A stretch of 58,410 nucleotides of DNA from contig PCWN01000011.1 of assembly GCA_002787355.1 (NCBI GenBank), forward strand, positions 1 through 58,410, read 5' to 3'. Positions 20,302 through 51,579 of this stretch are shown piece by piece (position 1 is the stretch's first letter; each line of letters begins with the position of its first letter). The notes under the pieces were generated by a model. It was not told the DNA's origin. It was given only the letters and a program-made list of their open reading frames with translations, and made no database searches. Made by a program: the position numbers and the translations under genes. This DNA comes from Candidatus Magasanikbacteria bacterium CG11_big_fil_rev_8_21_14_0_20_39_34. Lineage in GTDB: Bacteria; Patescibacteriota; Patescibacteriia; Magasanikbacterales; UBA922.

Positions 20302-21420
20302 ATGTATACTTCAGATTTTGACTACAATTTGCCCACAGAGCTTATAGCACAAAAATCCGTTGATCCTCGGGATCATTCCAAGATGATGGTGGTAAATCAT
20401 GGTACAGAGAGTATTGAACACAAACATTTTTTTGATATTGTAGATTATCTCCAAAAAGGAGACCTGATTGTTTGGAATACTTCAAAAGTATTTAAGGCAA
20501 GACTCTTTGGAAAGCTTATGGCGCAAAATGGAGAAAATCTTTGGGAGCATAAACGGAAGATCGAACTTTTCTTGGTCCGACCCATGGAGAATGATGGGGT
20601 ATGGAAGGTTCTTGCAAAACCAGGAAAACATGTAAAAAACGGTATGAGAATTGTTCTCTCATGTTCGTGTGAAGACGTCTCAGACTGTAGTTGTAATAAT
20701 GAAGATTTTTTTTGTGATGTCCTTGTAAAGGAAAAAGAAGGGACCATTCTTGTGCAGTTTCCGGATACAGAAGAGGCGGTCAGAAAAAAAGCAAATCGGT
20801 ATGGGCATATCCCTATCCCACCGTATGTAAAAGATGAACCGCATCAGTTGGAGTTGTATCAAACAGCATATGCACAACAAGAAGGATCGGTTGCCGCACC
20901 AACCGCTGGGTTTCATTTTACAGATGCGCTCATAGAGAAGCTTACCAAAAAAGGAGTTGAATTTGCAGAGGTAAGTTTACATGTTGGTTTGGGTACATTT
21001 TTGCCGGTAAAGACAGAAAGGGTGAAAGATCATACTATGCATGCAGAGATTGTAGAGCTAACAAAAGAAAATGCAGAAAAAATAAACCGTGCCAAGAGAG
21101 AGGGAAGAAGAGTTATTGCCGTGGGGACTACCACAGTGCGTACTTTGGAAGGTATTGCTATGCTGCGGGATCTTTGTCCGACGCAAACTCCCATGCAGGT
21201 GCATGCCTATCATGGGGATATTAATATTTTTATAACGCCGGGGTTTGAATTTCAAATTGTGGATGCTATGATCACCAACTTTCATCTTCCAAAATCTACG
21301 CTTCTTATGTTGGTATGCGCGTTTTCAAAAAGCCAGGCACTCATGATGGAGTGTTATAGAGAAGCGGTAGCCCAAAAGTATAGGTTTTATAGTTTTGGAG
21401 ATGCGATGTTTATTGTCTAG
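20302..21420 (+). CDS. queA: tRNA preQ1 ribosyltransferase-isomerase QueA
   Basis: 372 aa. YTSDFDYNLPTELIAQ opens the protein, RVNTSKV-type segment appears as VWNTSKVFKARLFG, and YQTAYAQQEGSVAAPTAGFHFT (about residues 190-210) with LHVGLGTFLPVK are diagnostic. It uses SAM to convert preQ1 in tRNA to epoxyqueuosine, one step after the Tgt reaction encoded by the convergent neighbour. A segment near residue 118 carries five Cys residues in 19 positions (CSCEDVSDCSCNNEDFFC), which QueA proteins usually lack. A 23-bp inverted repeat terminates it. Confidence 0.94.
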   Translation: MYTSDFDYNLPTELIAQKSVDPRDHSKMMVVNHGTESIEHKHFFDIVDYLQKGDLIVWNTSKVFKARLFGKLMAQNGENLWEHKRKIELFLVRPMENDGVWKVLAKPGKHVKNGMRIVLSCSCEDVSDCSCNNEDFFCDVLVKEKEGTILVQFPDTEEAVRKKANRYGHIPIPPYVKDEPHQLELYQTAYAQQEGSVAAPTAGFHFTDALIEKLTKKGVEFAEVSLHVGLGTFLPVKTERVKDHTMHAEIVELTKENAEKINRAKREGRRVIAVGTTTVRTLEGIAMLRDLCPTQTPMQVHAYHGDINIFITPGFEFQIVDAMITNFHLPKSTLLMLVCAFSKSQALMMECYREAVAQKYRFYSFGDAMFIV

Positions 21421-25047: not shown

Positions 25048-26052
25048 ATGAAATCAATTCATAAAAACAATTTGGATACATATTTACTTGGAAGTCAATT
25101 TTTTGGTACGGGCGGAGGGCTTCCATTAGAAAAACATAAAAAAATTTTCCTACAGGCTTTGGAAAAAAAATATGATCTGTCTTTTACCAATATTCATTCC
25201 TTTGAAAGTCATGACAGGTTGGCTTCCATATACGGAGTAGGAGATCCATCAAAAGCGCAAGAAAATTTTGAAGAACTTACTTTGCAATCACTTGCGCAAT
25301 TTGAAAGATTAAGTGGAATAAAAGTGAAAGGAATTATTCCGGGAGAAATTGGAGCAGAAGGTCTAGCTTTTTTATCCGGATCTATTTTAGATTTGCCTGT
25401 GGTGGATTCTGATTTGGTGGGGGGGAGAGCAGCCCCCGAGATTCAATTGGATACTTTTACGGTGCATGCAAAGCCGCTTACTCCGCTCTTGGGTTTTGCA
25501 GAAAATAAAAAAAGTATTTTTTTAGAAGGAAATTTTTCAGCAGAAGAAATAGAAAACATACTCAGAACATTTTTTGAAAAAAATGGAAGTTCTGGAATGC
25601 TCGTTGGGTATCCCATTTTTGCAGGTGAGTATGCAAAGATTGGTATGCTACAAACGTTAAGTGAAACCTTACAAATGGGTGAGATTCTTGCAGACAAAAA
25701 ATTATCTTCATTTGTCAGTGATCAGAATGGAAAACTGTTTGAAAATGAAATAATAGAAGAAGTTCATCTTGAAAGTGGGGGAGGATTTTTACAGGGGAGT
25801 ATACAGACAAAGAATTATGAGATAGAGGTGAAAAATGAAAATATGGCTTTAATCCAAAAAAGGAACAGAAAGGATTTAGCTCAAGTACCGGAAATAATTA
25901 TGGTTTTAAGTGCAGAAGGTACTCCTTTGCATAATGCTGACATTGCAAAATATAGGGGAAAGGAAGTACAAATAGTCGTCTTACCGGCAAAAGGGTATTG
26001 GAATGTTCATGAGAATCAACTTGCATGGGAGACTTTGCGCAGGCAGGAGTAA
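25048..26052 (+). CDS. DUF917-family protein (hydantoinase-associated type)
   Basis: 334 aa. LGSQFFGTGGGLPLEKHKKI (residues 10-30), the IIPGEIGAEGLAFLSGSILDL segment and LPVVDSDLVGGRAAPEI (about 130-145) match the DUF917 / S-methyl thiohydantoin desulfurase fold. Family members occur next to hydantoinases, but none is present here, so the substrate is unknown. Resident AT-rich codon use, lying between the two GC-rich islands A and B, so these islands were not a single insertion. The next ORF starts 33 bases downstream and may be co-transcribed. Confidence 0.72.
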   Translation: MKSIHKNNLDTYLLGSQFFGTGGGLPLEKHKKIFLQALEKKYDLSFTNIHSFESHDRLASIYGVGDPSKAQENFEELTLQSLAQFERLSGIKVKGIIPGEIGAEGLAFLSGSILDLPVVDSDLVGGRAAPEIQLDTFTVHAKPLTPLLGFAENKKSIFLEGNFSAEEIENILRTFFEKNGSSGMLVGYPIFAGEYAKIGMLQTLSETLQMGEILADKKLSSFVSDQNGKLFENEIIEEVHLESGGGFLQGSIQTKNYEIEVKNENMALIQKRNRKDLAQVPEIIMVLSAEGTPLHNADIAKYRGKEVQIVVLPAKGYWNVHENQLAWETLRRQE

Positions 26053-34102: not shown

Positions 34103-34140
34103 GGTCTTTCCCTTGTGTCCAAGAAAGTTGTGGACAGGGG

Positions 34141-34169
34141 AATGTATCATATATTCTCTGCAAAGTCAA
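34141..34169 (-). promoter_or_regulatory. Promoter of the phosphoesterase gene
   Basis: On the minus strand TTGACT (34164-34169), 17-bp spacer, TACATT (34141-34146). Predicted start about 34134, giving a ~30-nt leader to GTG 34102. Confidence 0.65.
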
Positions 34170-34202
34170 TCCCCAGTGCTTAAATAACGTAAAATATTTT
34201 TC

Positions 34203-34240
34203 AAAAAAAAGAAATCCAATGGTATTGAATTTCTTTTTTT
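34203..34240 (-). terminator. Intrinsic terminator after the zinc-ribbon gene
   Basis: aaaaaaagaaat-t-caat pairs with attg-g-atttcttttttt across ACC. Lies about 70 bases downstream of the minus-strand zinc-ribbon gene and just before the phosphoesterase promoter. Confidence 0.8.
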
Positions 34241-34310
34241 GGTGGTTCCCCCCCCTGCTCACCCAAAAAAAGAATATTTCTTATCTTGAGTGATTTTTGC
34301 AGGGGGGATG

Positions 34311-40814: not shown

Positions 40815-40857
40815 AAAATAAAAAATCATCCCTCTCAAGAGGGATGATTTTTTATTT
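40815..40857. terminator. Bidirectional terminator
   Basis: aaataaaaaatcatccctc (from about 40816) pairs with gagggatgattttttattt, loop TCAA. It overlaps the stop of the minus-strand regulator and ends both convergent genes. Confidence 0.9.
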
Positions 40858-41607
40858 CTGTGTATGATTGCTACAGTAGTAGTCTATTGCATCTTTCATA
40901 AAAGTGGCAAGACCAGGTGCAAATTTTTCATAGTAATCACCAAATCTTTTATCGTTTACATAGAGACTCCCAAGATTTTTGTACATGTCATATCCACATT
41001 CATAAAAAAAGTTTATTCCCTCATGATGTTTTTTTATAAGGAACTGCACTTCTGGATCTGCGATACCTTTGTTCATAGATTCAGCAATTTTTTGAGTGAG
41101 TTCAATTCCCTTTGCTTTCAGTTTTTCCATTTCTTTTTTGGTCATTTTGGAAACTCGTTTCATACTTTGCGTGTATGCATCGGAATTTCCCCAACGTTCT
41201 TTTACTTCATCTTGGTACTGTTTCATATCTTTATCTTCAAAAGCATCATAGAGTTCTTGATCTTTCATTTTTTGATTTTTTTGCATACGTTTGAGTGTTT
41301 TATCAATAGTTTGTATAAGTTTCTGTGTTCTGTTTTGTTTCATTTTAAGAAGTTTTTTTTGTTGCCGGAGACCTTCTTGGATATTATAATCTTTTTGTCC
41401 GAGCATGTGTTTGATTACCTTGAGAGGAAACTCAAGCTCACGAAAAAAGAGGATTTGTTGAAGGAGAATAAGTTCATTTTCTTCATAATAGCGATATCCG
41501 TTTGGAGCAAGAAATGCAGGACGAAGAAGCCCAATTTCATCGTAATAATGAAGGGTGCGGACACTTATATTGGCAAGTTCTGCAAGTTGATGTACGGTGT
41601 AGGTCAT
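40852..41607 (-). CDS. MerR/TipA-type regulator with TipAS domain
   Basis: 251 aa. The MerR winged helix MTYTVHQLAELANISVRTLH with YYDEIGLLRP is at the N-terminus, followed by the long coiled-coil dimer helix (about residues 75-125), and a C-terminal TipAS-like helical domain (about 130-251) that in TipA binds thiopeptide antibiotics. It would activate its own promoter on ligand binding; a 19-bp-spaced promoter with a dyad precedes it. Ligand unknown. The gene is divergent from the Met-leader locus. Confidence 0.86.
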   Translation of the reverse strand: MTYTVHQLAELANISVRTLHYYDEIGLLRPAFLAPNGYRYYEENELILLQQILFFRELEFPLKVIKHMLGQKDYNIQEGLRQQKKLLKMKQNRTQKLIQTIDKTLKRMQKNQKMKDQELYDAFEDKDMKQYQDEVKERWGNSDAYTQSMKRVSKMTKKEMEKLKAKGIELTQKIAESMNKGIADPEVQFLIKKHHEGINFFYECGYDMYKNLGSLYVNDKRFGDYYEKFAPGLATFMKDAIDYYCSNHTQK

Positions 41608-41661: not shown

Positions 41662-41730
41662 ACAACTTATACACAGACACAATCTTGTAAGAAAATGGAT
41701 ACCACAGTAGTATAAAATTAGGAATATTTT

Positions 41731-41808
41731 ATGAGAAATAATTTTGCATACAACTCCATGATGGCCATGATGACCTTACAGCGAAGGCCATGGTTTTGTG
41801 TGTACTAG
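41731..41808 (+). CDS. Met-rich leader peptide (25 aa)
   Basis: MRNNFAYNSMMAMMTLQRRP followed by WFCVY. Codons 10-14 (41758-41772) are Met-Met-Ala-Met-Met. The RNA arm used for antitermination starts 12 bases beyond them, so a ribosome waiting for methionyl-tRNA would leave it free, whereas one reaching the stop codon would cover it. Downstream is a gene of SAM metabolism. Confidence 0.62.
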   Translation: MRNNFAYNSMMAMMTLQRRPWFCVY

Positions 41809-41856
41809 ATTTTACTACATAGATAGCGGTGGCCTTCAGAGAAAGGCCATTTTTTA
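41761..41856 (+). promoter_or_regulatory. Methionine-type attenuator
   Basis: Four segments as in classical attenuators: 1 atggcc (41761-41766), 2 aaggccat (41784-41791), 3 tggcctt (41830-41836), 4 aaggcca (41843-41849) plus T run. 1:2 and 3:4 (terminator) or 2:3 (antiterminator) can form. Segments 2 and 4 share aaggcca. Confidence 0.65.
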
Positions 41857-41879
41857 TTTTTATGAAATAACAAAAAAAT

Positions 41880-42653
41880 ATGTTTATAACGATTATAAAT
41901 GATTGTAGATGTGAAAACGCAAAAATACGACAGCTTACTCGTGCCGCCAGTCTGTTTGATGCATCTGTGCATTTTTCTGGAGTGCAAAGTGATAGAGAAG
42001 CTGCATATATATTGGGGGATGTTTTGGATGCCTCAGAAGGGAGAAAAGGAGTGGTTTTGGTAAATGTTGCTCCAAGGAATGGAAGTGGAAAAAAGTACCC
42101 AAATGGAACTCCTTTCGGATACTTTTTTTTCAAAGATACTTTGGTTATCAGTTCTATTGCAGGGCTTACACTTTCTGTAGTAAAAAAACTGGGGATTACG
42201 GAATCGGTACGAGTTATTGATATCCCTGAGGTACTATCTTTTATAAAGGAGAAAGAAAAACTATCGGAATCACTTTGTGATCAAATTATCAATACGCAGT
42301 TTCGAAGTTTTGATTATTTACCTCGTGTCGCACAGTGGATTCTCAATGGATATGAAATTCCATTTGAAGAATACTCTCTTGAAAATGTTGAAAGTGCTTT
42401 GGGGACTGTTTGTTGGATTGATAATTTTGGGAATTGCAAAACAAATATTTTGGAGAAAGAAAAGCAAGATGAAATTTCTTTGAATGGTATTTCTCTTCCT
42501 TTTTATAAAAGGCTCAAAGACGTACCAGATGGGGAAGCGGCTGTAGTTGTGGGAAGTTCTGGAGTGGGAGATAGTCGATTTTTAGAAATTGTAGTTCAAG
42601 GAAAAAGTGCTGCAAAAATTTTCAACCTTCAGGTAGGGAATAAAGTTTTGTAA
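41880..42653 (+). CDS. SAM hydrolase / chlorinase-fluorinase family protein (DUF62)
   Basis: 257 aa. DREAAYILGDVLDA, VVLVNVAPRNGSGKKYPNGT followed by PFGYFFF, and the C-terminal WIDNFGNCKTNI are typical of the S-adenosyl-L-methionine hydroxide adenosyltransferase family, whose members cleave SAM to adenosine and methionine. The N-terminal Asp region (FITIINDCRC) is divergent. A Met-rich leader with an attenuator precedes it, in accord with a role in SAM or methionine balance. A terminator shared with L28 follows. Halogenase activity is not implied. Confidence 0.68.
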   Translation: MFITIINDCRCENAKIRQLTRAASLFDASVHFSGVQSDREAAYILGDVLDASEGRKGVVLVNVAPRNGSGKKYPNGTPFGYFFFKDTLVISSIAGLTLSVVKKLGITESVRVIDIPEVLSFIKEKEKLSESLCDQIINTQFRSFDYLPRVAQWILNGYEIPFEEYSLENVESALGTVCWIDNFGNCKTNILEKEKQDEISLNGISLPFYKRLKDVPDGEAAVVVGSSGVGDSRFLEIVVQGKSAAKIFNLQVGNKVL

Positions 42654-42678: not shown

Positions 42679-42709
42679 AAAAAAATCCGACGTGAGTCGG
42701 ATTTTTTTA
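42679..42709. terminator. Bidirectional terminator overlapping the L28 stop
   Basis: aaaaaaatccgac (42679-42691) pairs with gtcggattttttt (42696-42708), loop GTGA. Confidence 0.88.
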
Positions 42710-47710: not shown

Positions 47711-48622
47711 ATGAGGCATTTTTATCATATGAATACAAATACAGAGTTTACCCTTGAAGAGTCAACCTTTCACCGGTGTATAGAAGGTCTTCAAAAAGAT
47801 GATCAAGCTTTTTTGGTATCTGCCTTAGAGTTTTCTTGTGCGAACCATAAAAATCAAAACAGAAAGAGTGGTGAACCCTACATTATACATCCAATTGGGG
47901 TGGCCGTACGGGTCTTGGAACGTTACCATGATATTGCACTCACAGCAGCGGCACTTTTGCATGATACCGTTGAAGATTGTGAAGGGGTAACCATAGAAGA
48001 TATTTATTCTCAATTTGGAGACGAAGTGGGGTTTTTAGTTGATTCAGTAACCAAGCAACGTACAGATTTTTTTAAAATTCCGGGAGTTATCATTGAAGAT
48101 CGTATTGAGAGACTGATTTGGGCAGGGATGAAAGATATACGTGTTCTGCTTTTAAAACTTGCAGATCGTGAACACAATTTAAATACCATAAACTACTTGA
48201 AAAACCATAAGCAGATTCGTATGGCTTTTGAAACTCAGGCAGTGTATCAACCGCTCAAGCGTATTTTGGGATACACTGAAGGATATCAGGTTCAGGAGGC
48301 AGCACGTGCTTTTGCAGCGTACGCTGAGAGTCAAGGATTACATTCTGCCGGAGATATAAAGATGAATCTTATGGCTGAATCTTTTGAAAATTTTGATAAT
48401 GATTTATTTGGTTTGGTCTATAACGATACTAAAAGTATTATTTGGAAAATTACTGATTTTCAAACATATAAAAAAATTTGTGATACGGATAAACTTTCCG
48501 GTATCATTCAATTCCTCTCCGTGTGTGGAAATAAAAAGTGGTTTGAAGCCTCTTTTTGTTTTCTTGGTGGGGTAGTCATCGATGGGGATATCCAACTTGG
48601 TATTTCCTCGTTTCGTGGTTAA
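47711..48622 (+). CDS. Stand-alone SpoT-type HD hydrolase
   Basis: 303 aa (297 if ATG 47729 is used). The N-terminal ~190 residues are the RelA/SpoT HD domain: HKNQNRKSGEPYIIHP (His ligand), LLHDTVEDC (HD metal pair), KLADREHNL. There is no synthetase (Y-R-S), TGS or ACT domain, so it resembles small alarmone hydrolases that break down (p)ppGpp. The C-terminal ~110 residues are unfamiliar. It leads an operon with EgtD-like methyltransferase after 8 bases, trmD, a CDPS-like gene and a SET gene. An alternative is another nucleotide pyrophosphohydrolase. Confidence 0.8.
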   Translation: MRHFYHMNTNTEFTLEESTFHRCIEGLQKDDQAFLVSALEFSCANHKNQNRKSGEPYIIHPIGVAVRVLERYHDIALTAAALLHDTVEDCEGVTIEDIYSQFGDEVGFLVDSVTKQRTDFFKIPGVIIEDRIERLIWAGMKDIRVLLLKLADREHNLNTINYLKNHKQIRMAFETQAVYQPLKRILGYTEGYQVQEAARAFAAYAESQGLHSAGDIKMNLMAESFENFDNDLFGLVYNDTKSIIWKITDFQTYKKICDTDKLSGIIQFLSVCGNKKWFEASFCFLGGVVIDGDIQLGISSFRG

Positions 48623-48630
48623 TTATCTCT

Positions 48631-49584
48631 ATGAATTATATAAAAAAATTACAGACAGGTGATGAGCTTTCACAAGAATTTCTCAAGCATTTTCAGCAGT
48701 ATAAAGTGTTAAAACAAAAGGTCTTTTATTTTGGTTCTGGAGTGGAGATGTATTTTGATATTTCTTCTTCCCTCAAGGATGCATTTTTAGATCAAAAAGA
48801 AGAATACTTAAACTTCTTTGAAGAATATTTTCATCTTCAAGGTAAGCCTTTTGTGATCATTAGTCTTGGTTGTGCGGATTCGTCCAAGGAAGCTGCACTC
48901 ATAAAAAGACTGAAAGAAAAAGGATACCATTTTTCTTTTGTGGGGGTGGACTCTTCGGAAGACATGATAGAGGCGAGTCGAAAAACTTTGGAAAATTTGG
49001 ATGTAGAGTATCAGCTTATTTGTGCTGATTTTTCAACGGAAGAATTTACAGAAGAAATGAAGAAAATAGGATCAGACGTTATACGTGTGTTTACCTTTCT
49101 TGGGGCTACTTTTGGAAATGTAGAACAGGCATATATGGCAGATATTCTTTCTGATCTGTTAAAAAAAGATGATAAACTTTGGCTTGAGGTGGGTATTCGA
49201 AAAGAAATAAGTGATAAAAATGATCGGATGATTTTTGAGAGATATCTTGGTTGGTTGGAGAGTCCATTGCATAGAAAATTTTTATTGAAACCGCTTTTGG
49301 AATTTAATATTCCAGAAGAAAATGGAGATTTATTTTTACAAATGATTGTTGAGGCGGATTTGAATGCACTTATCTTTTCTTTCCGTTTCAAAATTTTGGA
49401 AAAAACAGTTTTAAATTTTCCGGATCATACCGTAACTTTGTTACCTGGGAATATTATTGATCTTCTTACTATTCGTTCCTATGATCCGGGAGGGCTCACC
49501 AATTTCTTCGAAGAAAGAAAGTTTAAATTACTTTCCAAAAGAGACAATGGGAGAACCGGAGAACTTATGTTTGAAAAATTATGA
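48631..49584 (+). CDS. EgtD-like SAM-dependent methyltransferase
   Basis: 317 aa. VFYFGSGVEMYFDI near the start, VIISLGCADSSKEAALIKRL (SAM motif I), FVGVDSSEDMIEASRKTL, and VFTFLGATFGNVEQ (the LG-x-T-x-GN word of the histidine-specific methyltransferase family) place it with Methyltransf_33. EgtD trimethylates histidine to hercynine; here the substrate is unknown. Starts 8 bases after the SpoT-like gene; its stop overlaps the start of trmD (ATGA). Confidence 0.75.
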   Translation: MNYIKKLQTGDELSQEFLKHFQQYKVLKQKVFYFGSGVEMYFDISSSLKDAFLDQKEEYLNFFEEYFHLQGKPFVIISLGCADSSKEAALIKRLKEKGYHFSFVGVDSSEDMIEASRKTLENLDVEYQLICADFSTEEFTEEMKKIGSDVIRVFTFLGATFGNVEQAYMADILSDLLKKDDKLWLEVGIRKEISDKNDRMIFERYLGWLESPLHRKFLLKPLLEFNIPEENGDLFLQMIVEADLNALIFSFRFKILEKTVLNFPDHTVTLLPGNIIDLLTIRSYDPGGLTNFFEERKFKLLSKRDNGRTGELMFEKL

Positions 49585-50300
49585 AATACAACATTGTAAC
49601 TATTTTTCCACATCTTATCTCAGGGTATGGTGGAGAAAGTATTTTGAAGCGGGGGCAAAACTCTGGTGCCATAGAGATATGCCCTTTGGATTTACGCGTT
49701 TTTACACAAGATAAACACAACAAAGTAGATGATACCCCCTATGGGGGAGGTGCTGGAATGGTCATGCAAGTGGAGCCAATTTTTCGTGCCCTCAAATCCA
49801 TAGATGCCATTCCTTTTTCCAAGGTGGATGGGCTTACCAAAGTAAAGAAAGTTTTTAATGGGAGTTTAGCTCGCAAAAAAAGGACCATTCTTATGTCTCC
49901 TCGAGGGAGGCAGTTTGATCAGAGTGTGGCAGAACAGTGGAGTCATCTGGATGAGTTAACTATTATTTGTGGACGCTATGAAGGTATTGATCAGCGTGTG
50001 GTTGATCATCTCATTGATGAAGAAATTTCCATTGGTCCCTATGTTTTGGCTGGCGGAGAGTTGGGGGCAATGGTAATTATAGAAGCGGTGTCGCGACTTA
50101 TTCCAGGAGTTTTGGGGAATGCAGAGTCTCTTAAAGATGAAACACATAATGTCCTGGTAGAAGATGGTGGTGTTGAGTCAGAATATCCACACTATACCAA
50201 GCCAGCAGATTTTAAGGGGTGGAAGGTTCCTGATGTTCTTCTTTCGGGGGATCATAAAAAAATTGAAGAATGGAGAATGGAACAGTCAAAAAAAAAGTAA
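49581..50300 (+). CDS. trmD: tRNA (guanine-37-N1)-methyltransferase TrmD
   Basis: 239 aa. MKYNIVTIFPHLISGYGGES, DDTPYGGGAGMVMQVEPI, TILMSPRGRQFDQ and the trefoil-knot SAM-binding site IICGRYEGIDQRVVDHLIDE with SIGPYVLAGGE (about residues 120-160). It methylates G37 of tRNAs, preventing frameshifts. In most bacteria it lies next to rimM/rplS; here it sits between EgtD-like and CDPS-like genes, an unusual setting. Overlaps the upstream stop. Confidence 0.95.
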   Translation: MKYNIVTIFPHLISGYGGESILKRGQNSGAIEICPLDLRVFTQDKHNKVDDTPYGGGAGMVMQVEPIFRALKSIDAIPFSKVDGLTKVKKVFNGSLARKKRTILMSPRGRQFDQSVAEQWSHLDELTIICGRYEGIDQRVVDHLIDEEISIGPYVLAGGELGAMVIIEAVSRLIPGVLGNAESLKDETHNVLVEDGGVESEYPHYTKPADFKGWKVPDVLLSGDHKKIEEWRMEQSKKK

Positions 50301-51024: not shown

Positions 51025-51579
51025 ATGTCCGTGTATGATTGGGATATGAATTTGGCTGCAAAGAATGTACCGTTTTCGCTTGACGAGATGTTAGAAAAAA
51101 TTGAAGTTCGAGATGTTTCTGAAGATATAGGAAAAGGGATATTTGCAAAACGATTTCTTAAAAAAGAAGAAATTATATGGGTATTGGCAGGGCCGGTGGT
51201 CTACAAGCCATCCATAAATACTGTCCCAATATATTGGGATGGCGAGGATGATTGGTTATTCATTGATCCTCTCGAGCCAGTTTCCAATATGAACCACTCC
51301 TGTAGTCCCAACGCCGGTATCCATGGCCGAACTATGGTAGTTGCCATGCGTGATATTGAAAAAGGAGAGCATATTACCATTGATTATGCCATGATCGTAC
51401 CAAGATACAATTTTGAACAACTTCCACAAACGGAAGAGGACCTTTTATGTACATGTGGCACAGAAGAATGTCGTGGGTCCTTTGGTGCCTATAAAAATTT
51501 ATCAGAGGAATTAAAGAAAAAATATCGACCCTATGTGTCGGAGTATATTTTAGAATTGGAAGAAAAAGGTAAATTATAA
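51025..51579 (+). CDS. SET-domain protein methyltransferase
   Basis: 184 aa. IEVRDVSEDIGKGIFAKRFL begins the SET fold, NMNHSCSPNAGIHG (about residue 92) and GEHITIDYAM (about 115) are the SAM/substrate motifs, and CTCGTEECRG (about 145) is the post-SET Cys cluster. SET enzymes methylate lysines; bacterial members are scattered and target ribosomal or chromatin-like proteins. It closes the five-gene operon. Its end is two bases from the convergent transglutaminase-like gene, with no terminator seen between. Confidence 0.85.
   Translation: MSVYDWDMNLAAKNVPFSLDEMLEKIEVRDVSEDIGKGIFAKRFLKKEEIIWVLAGPVVYKPSINTVPIYWDGEDDWLFIDPLEPVSNMNHSCSPNAGIHGRTMVVAMRDIEKGEHITIDYAMIVPRYNFEQLPQTEEDLLCTCGTEECRGSFGAYKNLSEELKKKYRPYVSEYILELEEKGKL

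Follow-up and report, generated by a model that had tools for sequence, protein, structure and literature searches.

A putative methionine-sensing leader peptide attenuator upstream of a gene of the predicted SAM hydroxide adenosyltransferase fold in Patescibacteria

Organization of the locus

We analysed a 58,410-nt stretch of DNA (hereafter the window; contig PCWN01000011.1, assembly GCA_002787355.1) from Candidatus Magasanikbacteria bacterium CG11_big_fil_rev_8_21_14_0_20_39_34, in which a short Met-rich ORF, MRNNFAYNSMMAMMTLQRRPWFCVY, and an intrinsic terminator precede a gene encoding a 257-aa protein (Table 1). The initial annotation reported a 25-aa leader with MMAMM at codons 10–14, located 12 nt before an antiterminator arm, and four segments able to form 1:2, 2:3 and 3:4 pairings as in the trp and his leaders. 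This observation is confirmed, except that the antiterminator arm, GAAGGCCA, begins 10 nt rather than 12 nt after the Met codons. The terminator consists of the hairpin GGTGGCCTTCAGAGAAAGGCCATT followed by TTTTATTTTT, and the region folds better than all 200 dinucleotide shuffles (z –3.2). All three duplexes exist, with energies of –19.4 kcal/mol for 1:2 (p 0.004), –17.1 kcal/mol for 2:3 (p 0.013) and –11.5 kcal/mol for 3:4. In dinucleotide shuffles of the 300-nt upstream region, a Met cluster this dense appears in 0.7% of cases, and the locus is the only match of ATGATGNNNATGATG plus a downstream T-run in the whole genome. No riboswitch or T-box was detected in the window at the Rfam gathering score.

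The best –10-like hexamer ends 12 nt before the leader ATG, but the –35 match is weak and a promoter scan listed no plus-strand promoter at this position. The probable terminator after the gene was read by eye and was not scored by the terminator scan; with it, the unit appears monocistronic. A MerR-type regulator with a TipAS antibiotic-recognition domain is divergent from the leader and possibly unrelated to it. Elsewhere in the window, an S-Me-THD family protein lies in one of two stretches near 48–49% G+C (24–28 kb and 32–36 kb), in a window otherwise near 38% G+C, and these stretches are possibly recent acquisitions.

Table 1. Coordinates of the features of the locus and of other genes of the window discussed in the text.
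Feature	Position	Strand	Remark
–10-like promoter element	41711–41718	+	TATAAAAT
Leader ORF	41731–41808	+	25 codons
Segment 1	41745–41766	+	pairs with segment 2
Regulatory codons	41758–41772	+	ATG ATG GCC ATG ATG
Segment 2	41783–41804	+	antiterminator 5' arm, also partner of segment 1
Segment 3	41820–41837	+	antiterminator 3' arm and terminator 5' arm
Intrinsic terminator (segments 3:4)	41828–41861	+	with U tract
Regulated gene (inferred regulation)	41880–42653	+	divergent member of the SAM hydroxide adenosyltransferase/fluorinase fold family (predicted fold)
Probable terminator after the gene	42680–42708	+	AAAAAATCCGACGTGAGTCGGATTTTTTT
MerR-type regulator with TipAS domain	40852–41607	–
SAM-using enzymes (QueA, EgtD-like, TrmD, SET domain)	20302–21420, 48556–49584, 49581–50300, 51025–51579
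S-Me-THD family protein	25048–26052

Recurrence of the leader and its RNA pairings among orthologues

The initial annotation had proposed searching orthologous loci for Met-rich leaders, and we therefore collected orthologues from relatives, from phylum and class samples and from genome contigs. Named hosts include a Parcubacteria group bacterium, a Woesebacteria, a Levybacteria and a Dojkabacteria, showing that the family is spread across Patescibacteria. Of 40 upstream regions, 14 (window included) hold a Met cluster, against 0.10 expected from dinucleotide shuffles. Besides the window, the leaders (loci are numbered L) are MRNTTIQLAMMMAPPNGGCGSYA (L002), MIQKYTQYMMMVLMTSTQRRPRV (L004), MHSLQNSNISNTMMSMMMHFRAPWIMFC (L010), MNSSKYQTTNLMMARMMSGFRWEVSC (L012), MTQKQMMMEMETS (L013), MKNYTLIQKFMMMYSPPGS (L015), MTHANSINMMMQSPS (L016), MIATQTSMMMAMMMRRSAEVLS (L021, GTG start), MSFVFNFQKSSLTMMAMMMKLPGKAGFKFI (L023), MVQITRININIMEMMTLKNRGRLSRI (L024), MTKTLLTNPGLMMMRP (L025), MMKRQSIMMSMTMMPAPTG (L026) and MLNQQAKMMMSMMMGMMPQSFSLENFV (L027), and weaker versions with two Met codons are found at L018 and L020. 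Apart from Met the peptides share little, and start-codon or SD support for the leader ORF is variable. In a count of the same kind for every amino acid, Met is the most frequent upstream (14 loci) and is absent from downstream control regions. Each of the 14 leaders is followed by a terminator-like hairpin with a T-rich tract. Some tails are weak U tracts (L018, L002).

In the 13 loci analysed automatically, the duplex between the stretch following the Met codons and the 5' arm of the terminator (2:3) beats shuffles at p<0.05 in every one (Fisher 7e-17). L096, described below, adds p 0.006 whereas L027 is not significant (p 0.21), giving 14 of 15 loci. The 1:2 duplex, which is clear in the window, is individually significant at p<0.05 in only 5 of 13 loci (Fisher 3e-5). 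A partition-function model in which the ribosome footprint is blocked gives, for the window, a terminator probability of 0.83 in free RNA, 0.00 with the first Met codon in the A site and 0.94 with the ribosome at the stop codon; in this model the 2:3 duplex is formed when a ribosome sits at the Met codons. The stalled value is below the stop value in 13 of 14 loci (Wilcoxon p 0.0006), and sliding the ribosome codon by codon puts the switch point at the Met cluster in most loci. However, in L015, L023, L024 and L025 the terminator outcompetes the antiterminator thermodynamically wherever the ribosome sits, and switching at these loci would have to be kinetic, depending on 2:3 forming before segment 4 is made.

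At L012, L013, L016, L021, L025 and an orphan leader (L099), a –10 hexamer ends 6–8 nt before the leader start codon, with a –35-like hexamer 17 bases further upstream, and the mean –10 score of 15 leaders was reached in 0 of 2000 shuffles. Many leader ORFs therefore probably begin at or near the 5' end of the transcript and are probably leaderless.

To ask whether the leader alone predicts the gene, we searched 381 class genomes for ATGATGNNNATGATG followed by a T run, without reference to any protein. The fetched loci, together with those from a looser pattern searched in 13 genomes, were screened by script for a short ORF, a terminator and a following ORF. This left only the present gene family, the orphan leader L099 and two false cases: L093, an acidic protein tail read in another frame, and L065, which has no gene downstream. 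A search for MMM in 22 mainly metK-less genomes, the hits of which were read by eye, gave no other gene family. L099 (genome G749, contig C26, minus strand, about 34133–34260) encodes MNNQPRQSVNMMMSMMMSSCRGCF with a TTGACA-17-TAATAT promoter and a terminator, and lies after the methionyl-tRNA formyltransferase gene (fmt) and a tRNA gene with no SAM_HAT gene downstream; it is perhaps a remnant or a trans-acting RNA. Besides known loci, the blind search retrieved L096 in genome G017, which carries the leader MIKRINNSMMDMMMQNLCELS, a terminator and a 333-aa protein (P0003) missed by the protein searches; here the leader predicted the gene. P0003 is a very diverged member of the same family, as indicated by profile comparison (E 5e-6), a SAM_HAT_C match (E 0.004) and the invariant Asp, NxAPR..NG and DxFGN. 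A model of P0003 matched only this fold family at E < 0.001, but these matches are only supportive because the model has low confidence (pLDDT 62) and its alignment contained the other family members. A search for divergent P0003 relatives in 241 relatives found none. With this case, the arrangement recurs in at least fifteen very different tiny-genome bacteria.

Many orthologues lack the leader. L005, L007 and L008, relatives of the same gene, have an S-box (SAM-I, RF00162) riboswitch in the leader position, followed in L005 and L008 by a terminator-like hairpin as read by eye; L006 looks similar but is below threshold and is probably a fourth case. The S-box, which binds SAM directly, independently ties the gene to Met/SAM control, and exchange of sensing systems in front of one gene is a known pattern (PMC2965389). 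Three families (f25, f198 and f203) have the gene without leader or S-box, and a few single orthologues also lack the leader. In L028, L029, L030 and L036 (family f203) the SAM_HAT gene follows directly on a gene ending in YGLIDKIIK or similar (ClpP/SppA-like). On the protein tree, 12 of 15 Met-leader rows fall in one clade with a few outside, which fits an old feature with repeated loss or exchange. One orthologue, L019 (genome G124, contig C31), has 12 in-frame TGA codons and reads as a good family member with TGA = Gly (code 25), so the gene also occurs in a Gracilibacteria-like genome. A group I intron lies near a tRNA gene at L011 (2312–2508), close to the Levybacteria orthologue.

The predicted enzyme and its metabolic setting

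The downstream protein matches SAM_HAT_C (PF20257, E 9e-12), but its N-terminal Pfam domain is not recognised and it scores 36.6 bits against a cut-off of 350 for the curated NCBIfam (R)-SAM hydrolase family. Sequence searches of the PDB with the protein, the family profile and L008 found nothing useful, and we therefore compared folds. The AlphaFold model (pLDDT 90.5) matches the SAM hydroxide adenosyltransferase PH0463 (2WR8, E 2.3e-12, TM 0.69), all top 19 Foldseek hits belong to this family, and only this family is matched down to E 4e-7. The SAM-pocket motifs are kept, and the N-terminal Asp, DxFGN and GSSG..E motifs of the SAM hydroxide adenosyltransferase (DUF62) and fluorinase-chlorinase family (PH0463, SalL, FlA) remain. 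However, the Asp-Arg-His triad, described as strictly conserved in DUF62 hydrolases and absent from the halogenases (PMC10491745), is missing. In an hhalign alignment of the family profile with a PDB-verified PH0463 sequence, whose N-terminal part is aligned only in the global alignment, D68 falls at A64, R75 at the variable K71 and H127 at the invariant R142. An invariant NxAPR..NG and a QFRS motif are found instead. The protein thus shares the fold and probably SAM-type binding, but hydrolysis cannot be assumed. The SAM-enzyme fold and the S-box in relatives point to Met/SAM. StDUF62, a DUF62 enzyme, prefers (R,S)-SAM and its physiological role is disputed (PMC12120602).

The window genome (99% complete) has no metK, nor have 11 of the 14 other leader-bearing genomes, against 35% without it in the class sample (binomial p 0.0005, not corrected for kinship). 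No archaeal-type synthetase that could act as a hidden replacement was found in the 25 genomes tested. Yet the window alone encodes QueA, an EgtD-like methyltransferase, TrmD and a SET protein, members of families that use SAM, implying SAM import or an unknown SAM source. SAM is therefore probably imported; EamA-type transporters exist, though with no known substrate. The S-box cases are all in metK-bearing genomes.

A proposed Met-tRNA-specific attenuator and its alternatives

The explanation in which we have high confidence is a trp/his-type, ribosome-mediated transcription attenuator that senses charged methionyl-tRNA. In this model, when Met-tRNA is plentiful, the ribosome following RNA polymerase would run through the Met codons to the stop codon and cover segment 2, and segments 3 and 4 would form the terminator before the gene. 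When Met-tRNA is scarce, the ribosome would stall on the ATG run and leave segment 2 free to pair with segment 3, and the gene would be expressed. Untranslated RNA would fold 1:2 plus 3:4 and terminate. The ORF, the Met codons, the pairings, their conservation and the fold are established computationally, whereas translation of the leader, ribosome stalling, antitermination upon methionine starvation and the reaction of the enzyme are inferred from sequence alone. The most likely role of the product, a divergent adenosyl-transfer enzyme, is to relieve a methionine shortage, for example by releasing methionine from SAM or a SAM-like sulfonium compound in cells that mostly lack SAM synthetase. 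The initial annotation had proposed that a gene of the family splitting SAM into adenosine and methionine is logically controlled by scarcity of Met-tRNA, and this interpretation is partly supported: the regulatory half well, the enzymatic half only partly, as methionine return from SAM is plausible, especially since the genome lacks metK, but not shown.

Chance association of an ordinary terminator with a random ATG-rich ORF could be suspected, since such ORFs do occur and the inverted repeats here include the self-complementary ATGGCCAT, but it is refuted by the comparative counts, the 2:3 pairing and the blind recovery of a new homologue. It is also unlikely that the leader senses a general translation slowdown, a ribosome-targeting antibiotic through erm-like programmed stalling, or the formyl-Met/initiator pool. 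A TipAS regulator does lie next door, and ribosome stalling of any cause at those codons would antiterminate in the model. However, Met residues are the only conserved feature of the peptides while their other residues vary freely, unlike nascent-chain stallers that need a fixed sequence, and SAM riboswitches, not antibiotic elements, replace the leader in relatives. Action at the level of translation or Rho-dependent polarity is similarly improbable: some U tracts are weak and Rho-dependent modes were proposed for actinobacterial Cys leaders (PMC1262725), but an intrinsic-terminator-like hairpin with a T-rich tract lies directly between leader and gene at every leader locus, with antiterminator pairing to its 5' arm.

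A more serious possibility, still tentative, is that the regulation is as proposed but the enzyme does not hydrolyse ordinary SAM, and instead recycles (R,S)-SAM or another adenosyl sulfonium, or runs towards SAM formation in metK-less cells. The missing triad, the preference of StDUF62 and the absence of metK from most leader genomes are consistent with this view, as is S-box control, which implies expression when SAM is low and does not fit a SAM-destroying enzyme. Conversely, expression on Met-tRNA shortage does not suit an enzyme that would consume methionine to make SAM, and the S-box members L006–L008 are distant (about 31–33% identity), although L005 is closer (44%). Splitting an imported sulfonium compound when Met-tRNA runs short would make sense. 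A further-reaching hypothesis, which we consider unlikely on present evidence, is that an attenuator with largely leaderless leader ORFs is the conserved regulator of a new triad-less (NxAPR) branch of the fold, and that in Patescibacteria that have lost SAM synthetase this enzyme is the only link between imported SAM-type compounds and the methionine pool, methionine for protein synthesis being salvaged from a cofactor taken from other cells.

By comparative standards the attenuator is real. Leader attenuators of the trp/his/phe/leu/ilv type are described in Proteobacteria, with Trp, Leu and Cys leaders in Actinobacteria and a His leader in bacilli, and share with the present element a short ORF with tandem codons for one amino acid, alternative 1:2, 2:3 and 3:4 pairing, of which 1:2 is individually significant in only 5 of 13 loci, and an intrinsic terminator before the gene. 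The differences are the amino acid, the patescibacterial host, the controlled gene and the probably leaderless nature of several leaders. We found no earlier report of a leader peptide attenuator for methionine, although only open-licence papers were searched and an earlier report elsewhere cannot be excluded; PMC1262725 reports none for methionine in Actinobacteria, and PMC2965389 lists leader peptides only in Proteobacteria, Actinobacteria and, as its own finding, Firmicutes. The initial annotation had noted that methionine genes are usually controlled by riboswitches, T-boxes or MetJ and that peptide-leader control would be unusual. Methionine genes are known to be controlled by riboswitches, T-boxes and repressors, not by leader peptides; a Met-specific attenuator would fill that gap and show the mechanism in Patescibacteria, where little gene regulation is known. 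The leader itself can be used as a genome-search probe, as the P0003 case shows. In addition, it provides a functional clue, a methionine-starvation response, for an enzyme family whose physiological role is disputed, and raises the question of how SAM-synthetase-less symbionts obtain and exchange SAM and methionine.
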